A stretch of DNA of 64,000 nt from Fulvivirga marina (GTDB lineage: Bacteria > Bacteroidota > Bacteroidia > Cytophagales > Cyclobacteriaceae): assembly GCF_016775155.1 (NCBI RefSeq), contig NZ_JAEUGD010000067.1:357622-421621 (forward strand), read 5' to 3'. Under the pieces are notes generated by a model that had not been told where the DNA came from, did not search any database, and worked only from the letters and a program-made list of their open reading frames with translations. Position 1 is the first letter of the stretch, and the number at the start of each line of letters is the position of its first letter. A program made the position numbers and the translations under genes. Positions 6,662-26,203 of the stretch are shown here, one piece after another.

Positions 6662-7141
6662 CTACCGTCCTTTCGGGGCCATCATGGTTTGTTGTCTTCT
6701 ATAGACCCAAGGTGGAGTAGGGTCGTCATGCCCCCATAATCCATTCTTACTTTCCTTTGCTGCCTGCTGCATACTTAATAGAGACAGATTATCTTCTTCT
6801 CTAGCCCAGGCCAATCCACTTTTTAACAGTTCATGATGCAACAACTTTCCATTATTCAAAACTACCTGCCCAAGCTTATTTCCCCACCTATCTTTTCCCT
6901 TCATTTCAACAACAACCCTTTTCCTAAGCACCAGTTTTTCTGTGAATTTTTTAGCCTCCTCGGCATACTCCTGACCTGGCTCAGGACAATCAACTTCGCT
7001 AAGCATTATTTTAACTACTTCCTTGTCTGGGTTAAGAAGTTCTATGGTGTTACCGTCAATAACGCGAATGACTTTTCCTGATACTTTTTCAGGTCCTGAG
7101 GGACTAAAAACAAAGAAAAATGAAATAAAAAGTTTGATCAT
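6662..7141 (-). CDS. SNase-fold (thermonuclease-like) secreted protein with altered active site
   Basis: The 159-residue protein shows the staphylococcal nuclease fold in order: GKVIRVIDGNTIELL (about 22-36), KIMLSEVDCPEPGQEYAEEAKKF (44-66), and DRWGNKLGQVVLNNGKLLHHELLKSGLAW (84-112). By hand alignment, three S. aureus nuclease active-site residues are changed: Asp21 is Asn31, Arg35 is Met46, and Arg87 is Asn88. Asp40 (Asp51) and Glu43 (Glu54) remain. A short hydrophobic N-terminus (IKLFISFFFVF) looks like a signal peptide. The protein is therefore probably exported, and either catalytically weak or a nucleic-acid/ligand-binding relic. The gene follows the giant TPR gene on the same strand but after that gene's own terminator. 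Confidence 0.82.
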   Translation of the reverse strand: MIKLFISFFFVFSPSGPEKVSGKVIRVIDGNTIELLNPDKEVVKIMLSEVDCPEPGQEYAEEAKKFTEKLVLRKRVVVEMKGKDRWGNKLGQVVLNNGKLLHHELLKSGLAWAREEDNLSLLSMQQAAKESKNGLWGHDDPTPPWVYRRQQTMMAPKGR

Positions 7142-7210
7142 GATAAGTGGTCTGGCTAGTAAACGTATATACGCGAAGGGGGGGCCAGGTAACAGAGTTT
7201 TTAAATAAAA

Positions 7211-7238
7211 TGCCCAGTCAACTATCAGTTACCGGGCA
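7211..7238 (-). terminator. probable terminator after the TPR gene
   Basis: On the minus strand a stem TGCCCGG...CTGGGCA, with inner AACT/AGTT pairing, is followed by TTTTATTT. It begins about 28 bp past the TPR stop codon. Confidence 0.6.
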
Positions 7239-7265
7239 CACTTTAAAATCAAACTCTTTGGATCA

Positions 7266-10200
7266 TTATTTACAATATTGACCGATAAAATATGAAGCTT
7301 TTTTGTCACCAAGTTCCACTGCTTTCCTCCAACTCTCACAAGCTTCTCCACCCCGCTCTAATTGATACAAAATATTACCTTTTACTTTATGGTAAGATGC
7401 CTCAGTACCATTTAGCTCAATTGCCTTATTAATAGCCTCCAAAGCTCCTCCCACATTGCCGGAAGACACGGTAACGTTAGCAAGATGGTAGTGTGCCCCG
7501 GCATCTTCCGGAGTAAGTTCTATAACCTTTTTGTAATCACTAATGGCTCCCTCGTAGTTTTCTGCCTCCTCTTTTAAGTATGCCCTATTGTAATATGCAT
7601 CTGCATTACTCGGGTCTTTCGCTATAACATCATCGAGGTCATTAGATGCCGCACGTAGATTTCCTAAATAAAGATTGGCCCTTGCCCTATCCATATAAAC
7701 CGAAGCATCCTTTTTGCCTGCATTCAATGCGTTTTGCAAATCAGATATAGCCGCCTCATAGTCTTGAGTTTCCATCAATGTTCTTGCTCGGTGCTGGTAA
7801 GTTTCTCCACTCTTGTTACCCGCTTCAATGGTTTTGTCAAAAAAGGACAGTGCTCTCACATATTCTTCCATGTGGTAATATGATTCTGCCAGATAAAAAA
7901 TAGCCTCTCCATCAGGCTTTTCCTCCAGTTTTTCATATCTGGAAAGATCTTTTGCTGCAGTTTCGTACCTTTCCATTATAAAATAGACCTTACCCCTATT
8001 TTCATAAGCTCTGGAGTAGTTTCCATCAATCTCAATAGCTTTAGTATAACTCTCAATGGCCTGATCCAGGTTTTCAGATAATTGATGAGCTTTACCTTTG
8101 TTATTATAAATGATTGGATTCTTTACCCCTTTGACAATAGCCTCATCATAATCTTTAATGGCGCTTTCGTAATTTTTTAATCGAAACTTGGCGTTTCCCC
8201 GATGGAAATATGCCGAACCATAATCACTTCTGACACTTATGGCTTTATTAAGTGCAGAAATCGCCCCCTCAAAGTCATTCATCTCATAAAGTGAATGTCC
8301 GAGGTTATGAAATACTTCCGCACCAGAAGCTCCCAATTCCACAGCTTTTTTTAGATCCGTAGTTGCTGCCTGATACTTTTCAAGCTTATATTCAGCAGCC
8401 CCTTTGTTTGCATAGGTCTGTGCATCTTCCATTCCCATCTGGACGGCTTTTTCCAGGTTGGGCAGTGCTTTTTCATAGTCTCCCTTATAGTATTGAGCAT
8501 TACCTACCCCATAATAAAGCAATTTATCATTTATACCTAAAGAGCGTGCCTTATCCAAGGCAGTAAGTGCCCCTTCGTAGTCTTTAGTCCGAAACTTTGA
8601 TACCCCTAGATAAAGGTACTCTTCCTTACCTCCCTGGCCAGCATCTATAATTTTATTCAAATCAGCGATAGCTCCTTCATAATCTTGAGAAAGGTATTTA
8701 GCAGTACCTCTATTGAGCAGAGCCACATTATAACCTGGCTTAACCTGAAGGGCTTTATCAAAATCGCCAATAGCCTCAGACAATTTATTGATCAGCATTT
8801 TTGCTTTACCTCGGTTATTATAAACAAGCTCATCATTAGCTCCCAATGTTATAGCCTGATCGTAACTCTTGATAGCCTGACCAAATTGCTCAAGTCTGAA
8901 CTGTGCGTTACCAAGGTTGTAATAAACCTCTTTATCCTTGGAGCCCTTGGATACGGATTTTTGCAAACTACCAGCAGCCTCACTATAACTCTTCAACTCA
9001 TACAGTGAAATACCTATCTTCGCATACACATCAGCATTTGCTACACCTGACTTTTCCACACGACCCAAGTCATCTACTGCCCCCTGATAATTTTTTAAAT
9101 TATATTTAGCAAAACCTCTTTTTTCATATATCTCATCAGATTTTTCACCCAACTCTTCTGCCATATCCAAGTAGCTGACAGTTTTCTTATAATCACCCTG
9201 ATCATAACTTAACAATCCGCTATACACATATACATGAGCATCTTTTATTCCTTCCTGAATAGCCTTGTCTAGGTACTTTTGTGCATCTTGCTTATTTCCC
9301 GTTTCATAGTAGGCAAGCCCTAGCATTTTAACTACTCCTTTATTTGGCCCTGAGGCCTCTTTTGCTTTTTCCAGATCAGCAATGGCGCCAGAATAATTCT
9401 TAAGCTCAAACCTGGCCGTCCCACGATTGAGCAGACCCTTCCCATAATCAGGTTTAAGGGCTATGGCTTTATCAAAATCATCAACAGCTCCCTGATAGTT
9501 TTTGAGTAGAAGCTTAGCTTTACCTCTATTATTCAACACTATATGGTCATCAGCTTTAATGTCAACAGCTTTATCGTATGCACCAATTGCATTTTCAAAT
9601 TCGTTACGAGAGTAATATATATCTCCTAATGATTTAAAAGTTTCATAATCCGCAACTCCCAGAGATTCAGCCTTTTTAAAATCGTCAAATGCACCCTGCA
9701 CATTACTGATTGAATACCTTGCGGCTCCCCGATATTTATAAAGCTCATTATTTTTAATTCCGCCATCCAATGCTTTGGTGATATACTCTTCAGCTTTGCC
9801 ATAGCTTGTATTTTCGTAAGCAGAAACACCTAGCATCTCATAAACTTCCGGGGTAGCGTGTCCGGCAGCTTCAGCTTTTTGTAGATAAGAATAAGCTTCT
9901 TTATTTCCCCCTGTTTCATAGAGGGCCATACCAAGCTTCAGGTTTAAGTCATCGCCTGTAGCCCCTCTCTGGATGGCTGACTTCAGTTCAGTAACTGCAC
10001 CCTGAAAATCCCCACTATTGAAACGAGCAACACCTATCTTTTCATAAACAGTAGCATCAGAGCTTCCTGATTTTTTGATAGCCTCATAATCTGTAATCGC
10101 TCCCGACCAGTCCTCAGCTGCAAACTTTGCTTCAGCACGGTTTTCCAAAGCTTTACTATAATCATTCTGTAAAGCAAGTGCTTTATCAAAATCAACAATT

Positions 10201-21545: not shown

Positions 21546-24500
21546 TTAAAACATAAATCCTAACCGGATATAAAAAAGAGTTTCCTCCACGGAGTGGCCC
21601 ACTTCGGCAGATACAACTGCTGTGTTAAAAGGAGCAATCCAAAGTCCTCCTCCATATCCGTGATGCCATAAGTTGGAATCTTCACCGTCCAACCAAACTC
21701 TTCCTATATCGTTGAAAGCCAATATCCCCATACTGGCGGGAAATATATATGTGCGAAAAGAAAGCAGATTCCAACGCACTTCAAAATTATTAAATAGCTT
21801 ACTATCACCATAAAATCGTGTTTTGCGGTATCCACGCAACTCCGACTTACCATCTAATACCTGTGCTTGATAAAATTCATAATCACCCAAATTCGTACCA
21901 ACACCGAAGCGTGTAGCCATTGTAAATGAAGAAGGTAGCTTTAATGTATAGTAGAATGCAAGAGAAGAGCTAAGTGATGAAAAAGTCTTTTGCGCATGAC
22001 TGATTCCGGTAAGTACTGACGCCTCATTACTCCAGAAAACCCCGGAAGTAGTTATTAGTGAACTATTGCGCTTATCAAAAGTCAGGTTTATCGCCCCTCC
22101 GGTATAGCTTTTGTAAATATCAAAGTCTATTTCACCGGTAGCATTACTATAGTCGGTAATAAAACGATCATCACCTTCAATATCCTCAATCTCAATAGCC
22201 TGGAATTTATGAGAAACAGAAAATGTTGCAAAACCTCCAATTCTCTTGTAAAGACCAATATCCGAAGACATTTCCTGAAAACGCAGTCTGTAATAGCTGA
22301 TTGAACGCCCTACATTAGTTGTTTCATCAATATCCTGGTTAAATTCACTTTCATTCCCCAGACCAAAGAAGTTATTTACATAATTAGGTTGCTTCACACT
22401 GAGCTTCACGCTTAAATTCCAGTCACTGACTGCATCGATAAAATCTCCTGAATACCTAAAATCATATGATGAGGTTTTCAATGCATAACTTGCCAATAAT
22501 GTATGCTTGCTCTTATATGGTTCCTTTCTAAAGCCATGAGTAGTATACATAAATCCACCTCCGACAAACAGGCCATCATCTGGGTTAAGATTTCCCGTAA
22601 CCAATGGCATTAATACATCATATTTAAATTCCTTTCGATTATAATAATGCACTTTAGGGTTACTTGACAACCGCTTTTTACTTTCTGCATTAAGTTCAAT
22701 ATCATTACCAGTTCTGGTATCATAAAAAATATTTCTACGACCCAGGCCAGCTACATGCGACTGGTCCTTCATTATATCCTCATCTTCTCCACCTATTACT
22801 CGTACTTTAATACTTCCTTTACTATCTCCCTCAATCAAAAATTCATCTTCTCCCCCCAAACCATATAACCTCACTTCCTCTGTTTCTCCTAATTTAAAAA
22901 GTCGACTGTAGATCTTTTTCTTTTTTTCACCGTCTTTCTTCATCTTAAGAACCTCAACATGCACATCTCCATTCGCAAGCCTTTTAACATGGAAATATTC
23001 ATGCTTATCACTACCAACTACATCAACTTCCCTGGCCAGGAACAGGTAGTGCTCCAAAGCATAACCCTTCAGCTTATCTCTCCTGGCTTTTATTTTAGCT
23101 ACAACCTCTTTTCCGTGTAATGCATAGATTGAATCTGGCCATTGCCGTATGGCTGCCTCAATTTCAGCATCAGTCAGGTCGTTTTGAATAGCCTCAGCGG
23201 CAGCCTCCCAATCTTCTTTAGAAAGCCCTGTAAGAAATGACCTGTCAAAGTATCGTGCATTGAACATAAAACCTGAAGGCCATCTTACGTCATAATCAAA
23301 ACCCTCAAGTTTTGGCAAAGCCCACCTTCTACTTACCAGGCCAGGAAGCAGGCCTTCATTTACAAAAAACACCTGATCACGGTCACGAGGAATTGGTCGA
23401 TACAAATCACCTTTCTCTCCTTTTTTTTCAAATTTAGCCCAACGCCACTGGTCATCATGTCGATCCCAGTCCCCTATTACCAAATCAAAAAGACGAGATT
23501 TCAGTACAAATTGCTGATCTACTTCATTATCGTTATCATCAACCAACTTATCCAATACTTTCGAGGTACTTACAATCTTTTCAGAGTTACCAAAAAATGA
23601 AGCATCAGACCAGTCATCATCAGGCCTCTCTTCATAGAGCGCCAGAGTATTTGCAAAGGTACTTTGATAATCCCCAAACCTTGGGTCATCAGGAATATAT
23701 ACCAACTTGGGGTTGGTATGATAAATACCAACTGCTTCTGCAAGAGGAGGAATAACAAAGGCTCCATAAGGATGCGCTGCGGAAATCTGATCCTGCACTA
23801 AGTCAACTGCAAAAGTCTCTCGTAAGAAAGCAGGAACGGCATTCTCTGGGTACTTCTCTACAGATCTTAAAACATATTGCTTTCCGTTAGAAGCTTCAAG
23901 CCGAAGGGATTTAGTCTGCATACCCCCTCCACGCTGCACAATCTTTAGCCCTCCATGCTCACCACCAATATCAAATACAGGAACTTCAATTTTTTGCCTC
24001 CACTCAGCTCGATAGTTTGCCCCCATTAGCTTTTCTCCCAGCCCCTTTTTGACTCCGTATTGATTACTCGCACTGGCAAAAACAACACTGTCTTTAAGAT
24101 CAAATTTTTGCACAAACTCCTCTGAAGTAAGCTTTGGCTGGAAGCTTTTTTTAAATAGTGTTTTTTCGAAAGACAATTTACCTGAAGCACTTTCCTTTGA
24201 GGGTTTCCAAAACTCTACACGCACCTCTCCATTCTTGTAAAAATCTAACCGGGCAAACCCATTAACAGACTCCGTATACTCTGCATAACCTTTGGTACGC
24301 ACATATTCTGTTTTGCAACCGGAACCACTGACGATATAGTGTATGCTATCTTTATTGATATACTGCAAAGCATGCTCATGGCCTGAAACATGAATGAGGT
24401 TTGGATAGTTTTCAAAAATATTGACCATACTATTTCGCATGGCTTTATACTTCGGGTGCGAAATATCTTGAATATTACCGAAAACTTTGCGAAAGAAGGG

Positions 24501-25268
24501 GTATATAGAACCCACAACAGGCATGGGAATATATAAGGGAGAAGCCAACTCTGTGAGTGGAAAAAAATGATCTTTGACAGTGTTAAAACCCCCATGATTA
24601 CCATAGGAATACATGGGGTGGTGCGTAGCGACAATGATTTTTTTCTCAGGGTTCTTTTTGATGATGTCATCCATTAATTGCATGACCTCAATCGGGTTAG
24701 CTACAGGACAATCACCCTGTAACTCATTAGGCTTATCCCACCCATGCAAAAACCACTGTGTATCTACAATAATTAACTCTACCTCTTCACTTAGAGACAC
24801 GGCAACGGGACCCGGACAACCATTATCAGGAAGAAAGACATTCTCTCCACCTGACTTTCCTTCAATATAGTTCTCCTGATTTTGCACATAATCCCACCCA
24901 TAACTCCTGCCCTGAGCCCAATCATGATTTCCAGGAACAAAATAATATTTACCTTTATAATCAGTAGTTAAGGATAGTTGCTTATCAATAGCATCTTCAG
25001 AAGCCGCCCTATCCGTACTGTATGCCGGAGGCATGCCCTTTGGGTATAAGTTATCTCCAAGAAATATTAAACCACTGTTTTCTCCAACTAAAGCAAGTTG
25101 TTGCTTTAAGACTTCAAAGATTTTTTGCTGCCCGGGAGTAATTTTACCCGCATCACCAATCAGAAAAACAGAATAAGAAAGTGTATCAGTAGAATTTCTT
25201 TGCCCATAAATGCCAGTGGAGAAAAATAGCACCAGGCCTAAAATCGCTAAAATCAAAAGATTCTTCAT
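21546..25268 (-). CDS. metallophosphoesterase - kinase-like domain - outer-membrane beta-barrel fusion
   Basis: The 1240-residue protein has a signal peptide (1-22) and three parts. Residues about 30-350 are a calcineurin-type metallophosphoesterase with all five motifs: GDAG (Asp39), GDN (Asp72), GNHD (113-116), THHP (His216) and GHEH (296-299). Residues about 440-745 resemble an atypical protein-kinase fold of the CotH/FAM20/HipA kind: a glycine-rich RGGGMQTKSL, YVLRSV, FLRETFAVDL as the C-helix Glu484, a hinge-like LVYIPDD, a catalytic-loop-like GDWDRHDDQ (599-607) and RPIPRDRDQVF with Asp629/Asp631. After a GGEDEF-containing linker, residues about 880-1240 form an Omp85/BamA-like barrel that ends in Phe (IRLGFMF). 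Phosphatase and barrel assignments are firm; the kinase-like reading is inference. Confidence 0.85.
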   Translation of the reverse strand: MKNLLILAILGLVLFFSTGIYGQRNSTDTLSYSVFLIGDAGKITPGQQKIFEVLKQQLALVGENSGLIFLGDNLYPKGMPPAYSTDRAASEDAIDKQLSLTTDYKGKYYFVPGNHDWAQGRSYGWDYVQNQENYIEGKSGGENVFLPDNGCPGPVAVSLSEEVELIIVDTQWFLHGWDKPNELQGDCPVANPIEVMQLMDDIIKKNPEKKIIVATHHPMYSYGNHGGFNTVKDHFFPLTELASPLYIPMPVVGSIYPFFRKVFGNIQDISHPKYKAMRNSMVNIFENYPNLIHVSGHEHALQYINKDSIHYIVSGSGCKTEYVRTKGYAEYTESVNGFARLDFYKNGEVRVEFWKPSKESASGKLSFEKTLFKKSFQPKLTSEEFVQKFDLKDSVVFASASNQYGVKKGLGEKLMGANYRAEWRQKIEVPVFDIGGEHGGLKIVQRGGGMQTKSLRLEASNGKQYVLRSVEKYPENAVPAFLRETFAVDLVQDQISAAHPYGAFVIPPLAEAVGIYHTNPKLVYIPDDPRFGDYQSTFANTLALYEERPDDDWSDASFFGNSEKIVSTSKVLDKLVDDNDNEVDQQFVLKSRLFDLVIGDWDRHDDQWRWAKFEKKGEKGDLYRPIPRDRDQVFFVNEGLLPGLVSRRWALPKLEGFDYDVRWPSGFMFNARYFDRSFLTGLSKEDWEAAAEAIQNDLTDAEIEAAIRQWPDSIYALHGKEVVAKIKARRDKLKGYALEHYLFLAREVDVVGSDKHEYFHVKRLANGDVHVEVLKMKKDGEKKKKIYSRLFKLGETEEVRLYGLGGEDEFLIEGDSKGSIKVRVIGGEDEDIMKDQSHVAGLGRRNIFYDTRTGNDIELNAESKKRLSSNPKVHYYNRKEFKYDVLMPLVTGNLNPDDGLFVGGGFMYTTHGFRKEPYKSKHTLLASYALKTSSYDFRYSGDFIDAVSDWNLSVKLSVKQPNYVNNFFGLGNESEFNQDIDETTNVGRSISYYRLRFQEMSSDIGLYKRIGGFATFSVSHKFQAIEIEDIEGDDRFITDYSNATGEIDFDIYKSYTGGAINLTFDKRNSSLITTSGVFWSNEASVLTGISHAQKTFSSLSSSLAFYYTLKLPSSFTMATRFGVGTNLGDYEFYQAQVLDGKSELRGYRKTRFYGDSKLFNNFEVRWNLLSFRTYIFPASMGILAFNDIGRVWLDGEDSNLWHHGYGGGLWIAPFNTAVVSAEVGHSVEETLFYIRLGFMF

Positions 25269-25312: not shown

Positions 25313-26203
25313 CTAATTAGACTTATAACTAATTTTAAAAATTTTGCCCCTTGCCCCATCACCTTCACTAGAGAGATACATGGTACCATCCTGAGCAAAG
25401 CATATACCTTCTGGCTGCTTATAAATACCTCTATCGAGACGTACCACCTCCTTCAGGTGAAAGGCAGGCGATAATACCACCAACACTTTATCTGCAGAAA
25501 GCCAATATATATCTGAAGTTAAGGGATGCACCGCAATTGCAGACGGATCAAAACTATGTATTTTATTAAAAAACTTTCTTCCCTTAATAAAATCTTCAAT
25601 CTCCTCTTCCCTGAAATGAAAAAGAGGTTCTGCACTCACTTTCTTCTCCTTGATATTATAGCTATAAACCGCCTTTCCCTTGACTTTTTTATCATTAATT
25701 TCACCTTTCTTTTTACAAGCCACAAGTAGCCTATCCTCCAAAACCGAAAGCCCTTCAACATCATTCTGAGAAGAAAAATCCGTATCAACCTCATCAGGCG
25801 CTACCGTTTCACTTCCTGAGACTTTAAAAGAGTAAATATCTCCGTTGCTCTTCACCACATATATACTATTACCGACCACCTCAATTCCCTCATAGTCGCC
25901 AGACTTGGCAAATTTTATTTTACGTACTAATTCGCCATTTTCTGCTTTCAACACATATACATAACCTAGCTCGTCTTGTACTACTGCCAAGTGAGCATCT
26001 CCTAACATAGACAACCCCGAGATTTCCTCCAGATCATAATGGAGCAAATACTTCTGATCAGGAGCATATAATTTGTAGGGAACTTTCTGATAATCATAAT
26101 CCATATATACACTATCGGTTACCAGATTCGTGATACTATTGCAGTTAAGGGCAGTCAGAGCTAAAAGCGAGAAGGCAAAACATGTAAAAATCAGGCTTTT
26201 CAA
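25313..26203 (-). CDS. SdiA-regulated-like (YjiK-type) beta-propeller protein
   Basis: The 296-residue protein has a signal sequence (MKSLIFTCFAFSLLALTALNC), which ends in a weak lipobox (LNC), so lipidation is possible. The mature part has propeller-like blades typical of SdiA-regulated proteins: EEISGLSMLGDAHLAVVQDELGYVYVL, GDYEGIEVVGNSIYVVKSNGDIYSF, NDVEGLSVLEDRLLVACK, HSFDPSAIAVHP, then YKQPEGICFAQDGTMYLSSEGD. Acidic Glu-Gly pairs in successive blades resemble phytase or lactonase-like propellers, but no catalytic set is clear. It is transcribed toward, and 44 bp upstream of, the phosphoesterase-barrel gene. Cotranscription is therefore likely and a shared envelope role is plausible. Confidence 0.78.
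   Translation of the reverse strand: MKSLIFTCFAFSLLALTALNCNSITNLVTDSVYMDYDYQKVPYKLYAPDQKYLLHYDLEEISGLSMLGDAHLAVVQDELGYVYVLKAENGELVRKIKFAKSGDYEGIEVVGNSIYVVKSNGDIYSFKVSGSETVAPDEVDTDFSSQNDVEGLSVLEDRLLVACKKKGEINDKKVKGKAVYSYNIKEKKVSAEPLFHFREEEIEDFIKGRKFFNKIHSFDPSAIAVHPLTSDIYWLSADKVLVVLSPAFHLKEVVRLDRGIYKQPEGICFAQDGTMYLSSEGDGARGKIFKISYKSN

Follow-up and report, generated by a model that had tools for sequence, protein, structure and literature searches.

A gene in a 64,000-nucleotide stretch of the Fulvivirga marina genome (NCBI RefSeq assembly GCF_016775155.1, contig NZ_JAEUGD010000067.1, positions 357,622 to 421,621; this whole stretch is referred to here as the window) encodes a protein of 1240 amino acids (aa) that joins a metallophosphoesterase, a middle domain with a predicted kinase fold and an Omp85 outer-membrane barrel on one chain. 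We consider it probable that this protein is an outer-membrane-tethered atypical kinase that carries a TRAP-like phosphatase on the same chain and acts on phosphate in the cell envelope. The gene occupies exactly the span that an initial annotation, made from the sequence alone, had assigned to it, and lies on the minus strand, which had gone unmentioned there. It is present as a single copy in its own genome (6.78 Mb) and does not represent a chance reading frame, as near-full-length relatives (approx. 29-46% identity) occur across the phylum. Its parts are as follows (counts refer to 98 fused proteins with phosphatase, middle domain and barrel, the window's included, not thinned for close relatedness).

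21546..25268, minus strand: whole gene, 1240 aa (coordinates of the open reading frame [ORF] exact)
25203..25268, minus strand: likely signal peptide, approx. residues 1-22 (sequence read by eye)
24219..25181, minus strand: TRAP/purple-acid-phosphatase-like metallophosphoesterase, approx. residues 30-350 (Pfam PF00149; profile match to human purple acid phosphatase)
23034..24056, minus strand: atypical kinase-fold domain (approx. 345 aa), approx. residues 405-745 (AlphaFold2 model; Foldseek)
23913..23933, minus strand: RGGGMQT at residues 446-452, a glycine-rich loop separating strand 1 from strand 2 (placed at 442-447 and 454-458 in the model)
23853..23867, minus strand: basic residues R468 (in strand 3) and K472, candidates for phosphate binding (each kept in 98/98)
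23448..23474, minus strand: catalytic-loop motif GDWDRHDDQ, residues 599-607, with D602 as predicted catalytic Asp (conservation; profile alignment onto the CtkA DRH loop and CotH)
23376..23384, minus strand: D629-R-D631, predicted metal-binding DxD after strand 8 (each Asp in 98/98; alignment onto the CotH D-x-D)
22674..23030, minus strand: beta-rich linker domain, approx. residues 747-865 (model; where the genes are split, in L050 and L051, it remains with the kinase domain)
21561..22616, minus strand: Omp85 barrel, approx. residues 885-1236, 16 strands of at least 7 residues (model strand list; Foldseek)

The initial annotation had noted kinase-fold landmarks between phosphatase and barrel and had proposed the structure of this segment as a test. 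An AlphaFold2 model of residues 396-750, built from 70 sequences, reached a pLDDT of 94.9 and a pTM of 0.93 and has a kinase fold: when it was compared to the PDB with Foldseek, all 11 matches at E <= 0.001 were kinases, i.e., CtkA (seven chains, best E 4.8e-6), CotH (two entries; 5jd9, 3.1e-4), PI4KII-alpha (3.9e-4) and Rio2 (6.3e-4), followed by HipT and COQ8A. In the model a strand (442-447), the glycine-rich loop and two further strands (454-458 and 464-469, the latter carrying R468) are followed by a helix at 486-497 (D493), strands 521-525 and 541-547 (E546), a helix at 585-598, the loop 599-607, strands 608-614 and 621-627 and finally D629-R-D631. This is the bilobal order of the protein-kinase-like superfamily (b1-Gly loop-b2-b3-aC-b4-b5-hinge-aE-catalytic loop-DxD/DFG), with modest overlay scores, and the landmarks themselves (RGGGMQT at residue 446, YVLRSV at 465, LRETFAVDL at 482, GDWDRHDDQ at 599 and RPIPRDRDQ at 624) were all found where they had been placed.

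Sequence comparisons that are independent of the model point weakly in the same direction. The best PDB match of the middle-domain profile was CtkA, aligned at the DRH loop (E 0.12), and single members matched Fam20C (7e-4) and CotH (0.029) in Pfam, in one of 35 members each; a scan of 148 genomes with the Fam20C model gave a sole match, inside a member of the middle-domain family (4.8e-4, below the cut-off). In a profile comparison with 20 CotH proteins the catalytic motifs were in register and the score was 34.7, as compared to 15-18 for five unrelated profiles. The corresponding score for 20 HipA proteins was 15.8, i.e., within the range of these controls, and membership in HipA_C (PF07804) was rejected at the profile level. 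The likeness to CotH, FAM20 and HipA kinases proposed initially thus stands for CotH, both structurally and by profile, and weakly for Fam20C, and is lost for HipA by profile, though CtkA, a HipA-like kinase, is the best structural match.

None of these families contains the window protein as judged by Pfam: it gave no match to CotH (PF08757) at E <= 1 (the best of 35 members being the one mentioned above), nothing above the cut-off for Fam20C (PF06702), and no match of any kind at E <= 1 between Metallophos and Omp85; compared to PDB sequences, the whole protein had no match at E <= 1 either. Scans of 70 middle domains against Pfam and NCBIfam yielded scattered chance-level matches only. Since no model in these collections covers the domain, it is best classified as a new family within the kinase-like superfamily, separate from CotH, Fam20C and HipA. 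As part of the interpretation that we favour, this new family probably belongs to the CotH/Fam20C/CtkA side of the superfamily; the domain could be among the families listed by KINtaro (PMC10870513).

The residues expected to be catalytic are nearly invariant. R468, K472, D600, D629 and D631 are present in all 98 fused proteins, D493 and E546 in 97 each and D602 in 96, so that the conservation of D602, D629 and D631, on which the initial annotation had staked its reading, is borne out. The position that is usually the metal-site Asn in kinases holds Gln in 95 and Asn in 3 of these proteins. Many loci were collected in a scan of genome contigs for the pattern Dxx[ILM][GSA]DWDRH, for which the best 80 of at least 594 confirmed loci were kept; as the pattern contains D600 to H604, the invariance of these residues in pattern-found loci reflects selection of the data. 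Of the 36 fused relatives found independently of the pattern, which are free of this bias, 34 retain D602 and all retain D629 and D631. An alignment of 35 of 45 non-redundant middle domains flatters the family in its invariant columns because ten divergent or degenerate rows were left out; when such rows are included, in a broader collection of 66 middle domains (matches spanning less than approx. 170 residues, L004, L070 and the duplicate L009 being excluded), D602, D629 and D631 are kept in 88%, 91% and 86%, respectively.

In the phosphatase, all five calcineurin-type motifs of the initial annotation were confirmed (GDAG at residue 38, GDN at 71, GNHD at 113, THHP at 215 and GHEH at 296), and the protein belongs to PF00149 (Metallophos, residues 34-233, E 1.1e-10; 42.7 bits as compared to a cut-off of 21.5) with the metal-ligand motifs retained. 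A profile of 36 phosphatase domains found mammalian purple acid phosphatase/TRAP as its top PDB match (human 1war, 8.5e-14). The metal-ligand positions, which were chosen from the known motifs of such enzymes (D39, D72, N114, H115, H216, H217, H297 and H299), are kept in 82-91 of the 98 fused proteins, and the site is degenerate, i.e., retains fewer than 7 of the 8 positions, in 18 of them, one of which (L106) is a truncated ORF with gaps. Of 149 middle domains, 80 share their ORF with an intact phosphatase, 18 with a degenerate one and 51 with none; among these 51, L130 and L132 are truncated by the locus end, and L050 and L051 have the phosphatase as a gene of its own in the locus. On a tree built with a quick method, the three phosphatase states require at least 21 changes (11 between degenerate and intact, 10 for absence; the direction was not inferred), and the starred branches alone force 9 and 7 changes. 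Mean identity to the window protein across 97 relatives is 0.486 for the kinase-like domain, 0.395 for the phosphatase, 0.401 for the beta-domain and 0.362 for the barrel. These identities, together with the counts of phosphatase states, mark the kinase-like domain as the constrained core and the phosphatase as an accessory that was lost or gained many times. The pairing of the two enzyme-like domains on a barrel, as initially described, is real in the fused proteins; the phosphatase is dispensable.

In a model of residues 386-1240 (pLDDT 91.8), the kinase-like domain is followed by an all-beta domain at 747-865 and a 16-strand barrel. By Foldseek the barrel is closest to BamA, TamA and Sam50 (best E 1.8e-10), and Pfam places it in the Omp85 superfamily (residues 933-1202, 1.8e-6; 28.2 bits as compared to a cut-off of 24); the NCBIfam model Omp85_fam (NF047779) matches residues 893-1240 at 1.9e-34, but its 119.8 bits fall under the curated cut-off of 200. 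These results agree with the BamA/TamA-like barrel ending in Phe that had been proposed, and the protein does end in Phe. No POTRA domain was matched by Pfam in the window protein, the domain preceding the barrel being all-beta in the model, and the beta-domain profile had no convincing relative in the PDB (best E 0.17). In the Omp85 protein PlpD the N-terminal enzyme domain is reported to be periplasmic (PMC11116518), and by analogy the kinase-like domain and the phosphatase probably face the periplasm. The extracytoplasmic, barrel-tethered layout of the initial annotation is retained, with the enzymes probably on the periplasmic face instead of at the surface.

The family is widespread and modular. 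In a survey of 296 Bacteroidota genomes, the whole protein found matches in 175 (some to the phosphatase or barrel only) and the middle-domain profile in 114; among named relatives, Chryseolinea lacunae is closest on the tree, its middle domain being 65% identical, and named carriers are found among cultured strains in Pontibacter, Mucilaginibacter, Larkinella and Rufibacter. Besides the window's, 97 ORFs of 1043-1384 aa combine phosphatase, middle domain and barrel; those with middle domain and barrel only measure 818-1028 aa among the ones on the tree, and ORFs in which the middle domain stands by itself or carries just the beta-domain have 420-545 aa, a few being cut. Stand-alone phosphatases also occur (L071-L074), and L052 and L053 have the kinase-like domain but no barrel. 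L050 and L051 have the parts spread over three genes that lie side by side, for middle plus beta-domain (518 and 545 aa), phosphatase (403 aa) and barrel (394 and 395 aa), and L070 has a phosphatase gene overlapped by one for the middle domain, which is truncated where the contig stops; these arrangements argue for three parts that work together and for a middle segment that is an independent module. Judged by eye, the N-termini of the kinase-like and phosphatase genes of L050 and L051 are lipoprotein-like, and those of stand-alone kinase-like ORFs are Sec-type (L052) or membrane-anchor-like (L053, L090, L093), which argues that the kinase-like module is probably exported; the stand-alone phosphatase L074 showed no clear signal at its N-terminus by eye.

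Some members depart from the common pattern. L054, L055, L056, L057, L058, L064 (2476-5115), L067, L068 and L069 lack one or more of D602, D629 and D631 and are candidate pseudokinases on outer-membrane barrels. Three Rufibacter loci (L090, 2691-4304; L093, 2657-4270; L094, 2-1318; all on the minus strand) carry a second kinase-like gene near a fused gene with a degenerate phosphatase, with an anchor-like N-terminus in L090 and L093 and a cut one in L094. Kinase-like genes also cluster, i.e., three at G072:C27:62470-66739 and two divergent ones at G166:C1:1087843-1090375, with open frames of 531-586 aa.

Neighbouring genes were surveyed within 4 kb of 150 loci, many of them with little flank, and domain names were taken from one representative of each family. 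Directly upstream of the window gene, on the same strand and 44 bases away (25313 as compared to 25268), lies the SdiA-regulated propeller gene pointed out initially:

25313..26203, minus strand: SdiA-regulated-like beta-propeller, probable lipoprotein (lipobox by eye), likely co-transcribed (PF06977, 3.7e-8; recurs directly upstream)

It has a TTG start and a lipobox-like ALTALNC, some of its relatives also being lipoprotein-like by eye, and shows a weak phytase-like similarity (8.2e-4, below the cut-off). The propeller is one of the two commonest neighbour families (41 loci; median gap 0; 39 of the 41 copies upstream on the same strand), the other being HD-PycTM (55 loci). Further neighbours are class III cyclases (clusters of 23 and 18 loci), PAS-histidine kinases (18), PPK1 (17), a 785-aa family (15), PAP2 (12), a helix-turn-helix protein (12), a SixA-like histidine phosphatase (11) and NUDIX (11); the 785-aa family (L114, 5169-7523, plus strand) had no Pfam match at E <= 0.001. 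Among the rows kept on the tree, 18 of 96 have PPK1 nearby (at least 10 changes), 38 of 106 the propeller (19), 57 of 107 HD-PycTM (20) and 11 of 95 the SixA-like protein (5), fractions that lean high, as rows with a match were kept at any flank and those without only with > 2.5 kb on both sides. By arithmetic from one or two ppk genes per approx. 4.5 Mb, chance would be expected to place PPK1 next to less than one of 96 loci. PPK1 is directly convergent with the family gene in L037, L046 and L063, convergent behind another gene in the Pontibacter and Rufibacter loci L124-L127 and L135, and upstream on the same strand in L088, L091, L092, L114 and L149.

HD-PycTM is labelled "Pycsar effector" in Pfam. 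Elsewhere in the F. marina genome (contig C64, locus L201), an HD-PycTM gene (6760-7968, plus strand) and a polyphosphate kinase gene (7937-10042, minus strand) stand tail to tail with a 32 bp overlap. In view of this arrangement the defence reading was set aside; a polyphosphate-related role is just as likely as one in defence, and HD-PycTM in these bacteria may have the former rather than the latter. Overall, the linkage of neighbours suggests a role of the family tied to polyphosphate or to phosphate state.

Several observations weigh against an envelope kinase linked to polyphosphate. The overlays of the 11 leading structural matches are partial, with TM-scores of 0.36-0.51, an rmsd of 8-10 A and 10-14% identity, the CotH profile comparison has a probability of 16% only, and in a second set of members none of 70 matched CotH or Fam20C in Pfam at E <= 0.1. 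Strand 3, which carries Lys in most kinases, carries Arg (R468), Gly replaces D602 in two of the 98 fused proteins, and about ten divergent members, mostly with middle domain and barrel, lack several catalytic residues and may be pseudoenzymes. No ppk gene lies within 4 kb in 78 of the 96 loci with enough flank; in F. marina itself the nearer ppk, the one tail to tail with HD-PycTM, shares the contig with the window gene at a distance of approx. 65 kb, and the second is on another contig. As PPK1 is near-universal (matches in 273 of the 296 genomes), its co-occurrence was rejected as evidence, and only linkage points to polyphosphate. Moreover, the periplasm is generally held to lack ATP, and a phosphate donor must therefore be found.

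We nevertheless favour a mechanism in which the atypical kinase domain, predicted to be catalytically competent, would be tethered via the small beta-domain to an Omp85 barrel lacking POTRA, on its periplasmic side, and would phosphorylate a protein, glycan or lipid of the envelope. The TRAP-like phosphatase, intact in most fused members, would oppose it by taking phosphate off the same or a related pool, the upstream propeller lipoprotein would be a likely partner, and the recurrent polyphosphate kinase and HD-PycTM neighbours would link the enzyme to polyphosphate or phosphate status. A bolder version, which we regard as quite improbable, is an ATP-free two-enzyme switch at the Bacteroidota outer membrane, in which the kinase-fold domain would use polyphosphate (supplied by the linked PPK1) or another exported phosphoanhydride and the TRAP-like domain would reset the mark.

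It appears rather unlikely that the kinase-fold domain is catalytic without being a phosphotransferase, i.e., that it modifies its target by adenylylation, glutamylation or in another way, like the kinase-superfamily members SelO and SidJ, while the TRAP-like domain acts on other phosphoesters. The invariant Asp residues would fit any nucleotide-dependent transfer, and the Arg in strand 3 and the Gln at the metal site are departures from ordinary kinases, which have Lys and Asn there, but the 11 nearest folds are phosphotransferases, and neither SelO nor SidJ is among the 50 Foldseek matches listed. The near-invariance of D602, D629 and D631, which points to catalysis and not to mere binding, also speaks against a protein devoted mainly to phosphate scavenging, in which phosphatase and propeller would act on organic phosphates to release phosphate, the kinase-like domain only binding phosphate-rich ligands such as polyphosphate or inositol phosphates. 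The TRAP-like phosphatase, the phytase-like similarity of the propeller and the ppk, histidine-phosphatase, PAP2 and NUDIX neighbours would suit such a function, yet the kinase-like domain persists where the phosphatase is absent or degenerate, and we give scavenging little credence. A role as an assembly or lipid-handling factor of the BamA/TamA type, with a functional barrel and regulatory kinase and phosphatase domains, is in our view highly improbable: it would be in keeping with the relatives of the barrel and with the general function of Omp85 proteins (PMC4104836), but conservation is lowest in the barrel (36% as compared to 49% for the kinase-like domain), POTRA is lacking, and the kinase-like domain also occurs in the barrel-less ORFs.

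The envelope kinase favoured here resembles several known systems in part. The window phosphatase shares a profile match with TRAP/ACP5 purple acid phosphatase and differs from it in being fused to a kinase-like domain and a barrel and in the degeneracy of its site in some fused proteins. CtkA of Helicobacter pylori, the best match both in structure and among PDB sequences, shares 12-14% identity and is not known to have a barrel or a phosphatase; the HipA_C profile is not above controls. With CotH and Fam20C, which are similar to each other in sequence (PMC12189002), the middle domain shares the kinase fold, with catalytic Asp and DxD in register with CotH, and it differs in the lack of a Pfam match above the cut-off and in its fusion to phosphatase and barrel. 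PlpD likewise has an enzyme domain N-terminal to an Omp85 barrel, but a patatin-like lipase with a POTRA domain and no phosphate chemistry. The one literature match for Omp85 with a metallophosphoesterase in Bacteroidetes (PMC10281475) deals with OMP76, a TonB-receptor-like protein, and is irrelevant. A further related system is the Omp85 "Metallo" subfamily of Heinz and Lithgow (2014; PMC4104836), a POTRA-less group defined by PF00149 N-terminal to the barrel, which very probably includes the window protein; in the main text describing it, PF00149 is discussed as a metalloprotease and the word "kinase" does not occur, whereas the fold is that of a phosphoesterase, TRAP-like in the window protein. 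In the literature searched, which did not cover subscription papers, preprints or the KINtaro family list, nothing else relevant was found on an Omp85 barrel combined with phosphatase and kinase. The architecture appears to have been known in outline but misread, and the kinase-fold domain, its invariance and the polyphosphate linkage look new.

Reversible phosphorylation outside the bacterial cytosol is scarcely known, as is the way in which it might be powered. Here, a widespread family places a kinase fold with near-invariant predicted catalytic residues and, in the majority of fused members, an acid-phosphatase-like domain on a shared outer-membrane anchor. Such a previously uncatalogued kinase-shaped domain on an outer-membrane barrel suggests that phosphate is added and removed outside the cell interior. 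If true, this would be the first kinase described on an Omp85 barrel, as far as the literature searched shows, and an ATP-free switch would represent a new class of extracytoplasmic kinase; the cultured carriers in Pontibacter, Mucilaginibacter, Larkinella and Rufibacter make the question directly testable.

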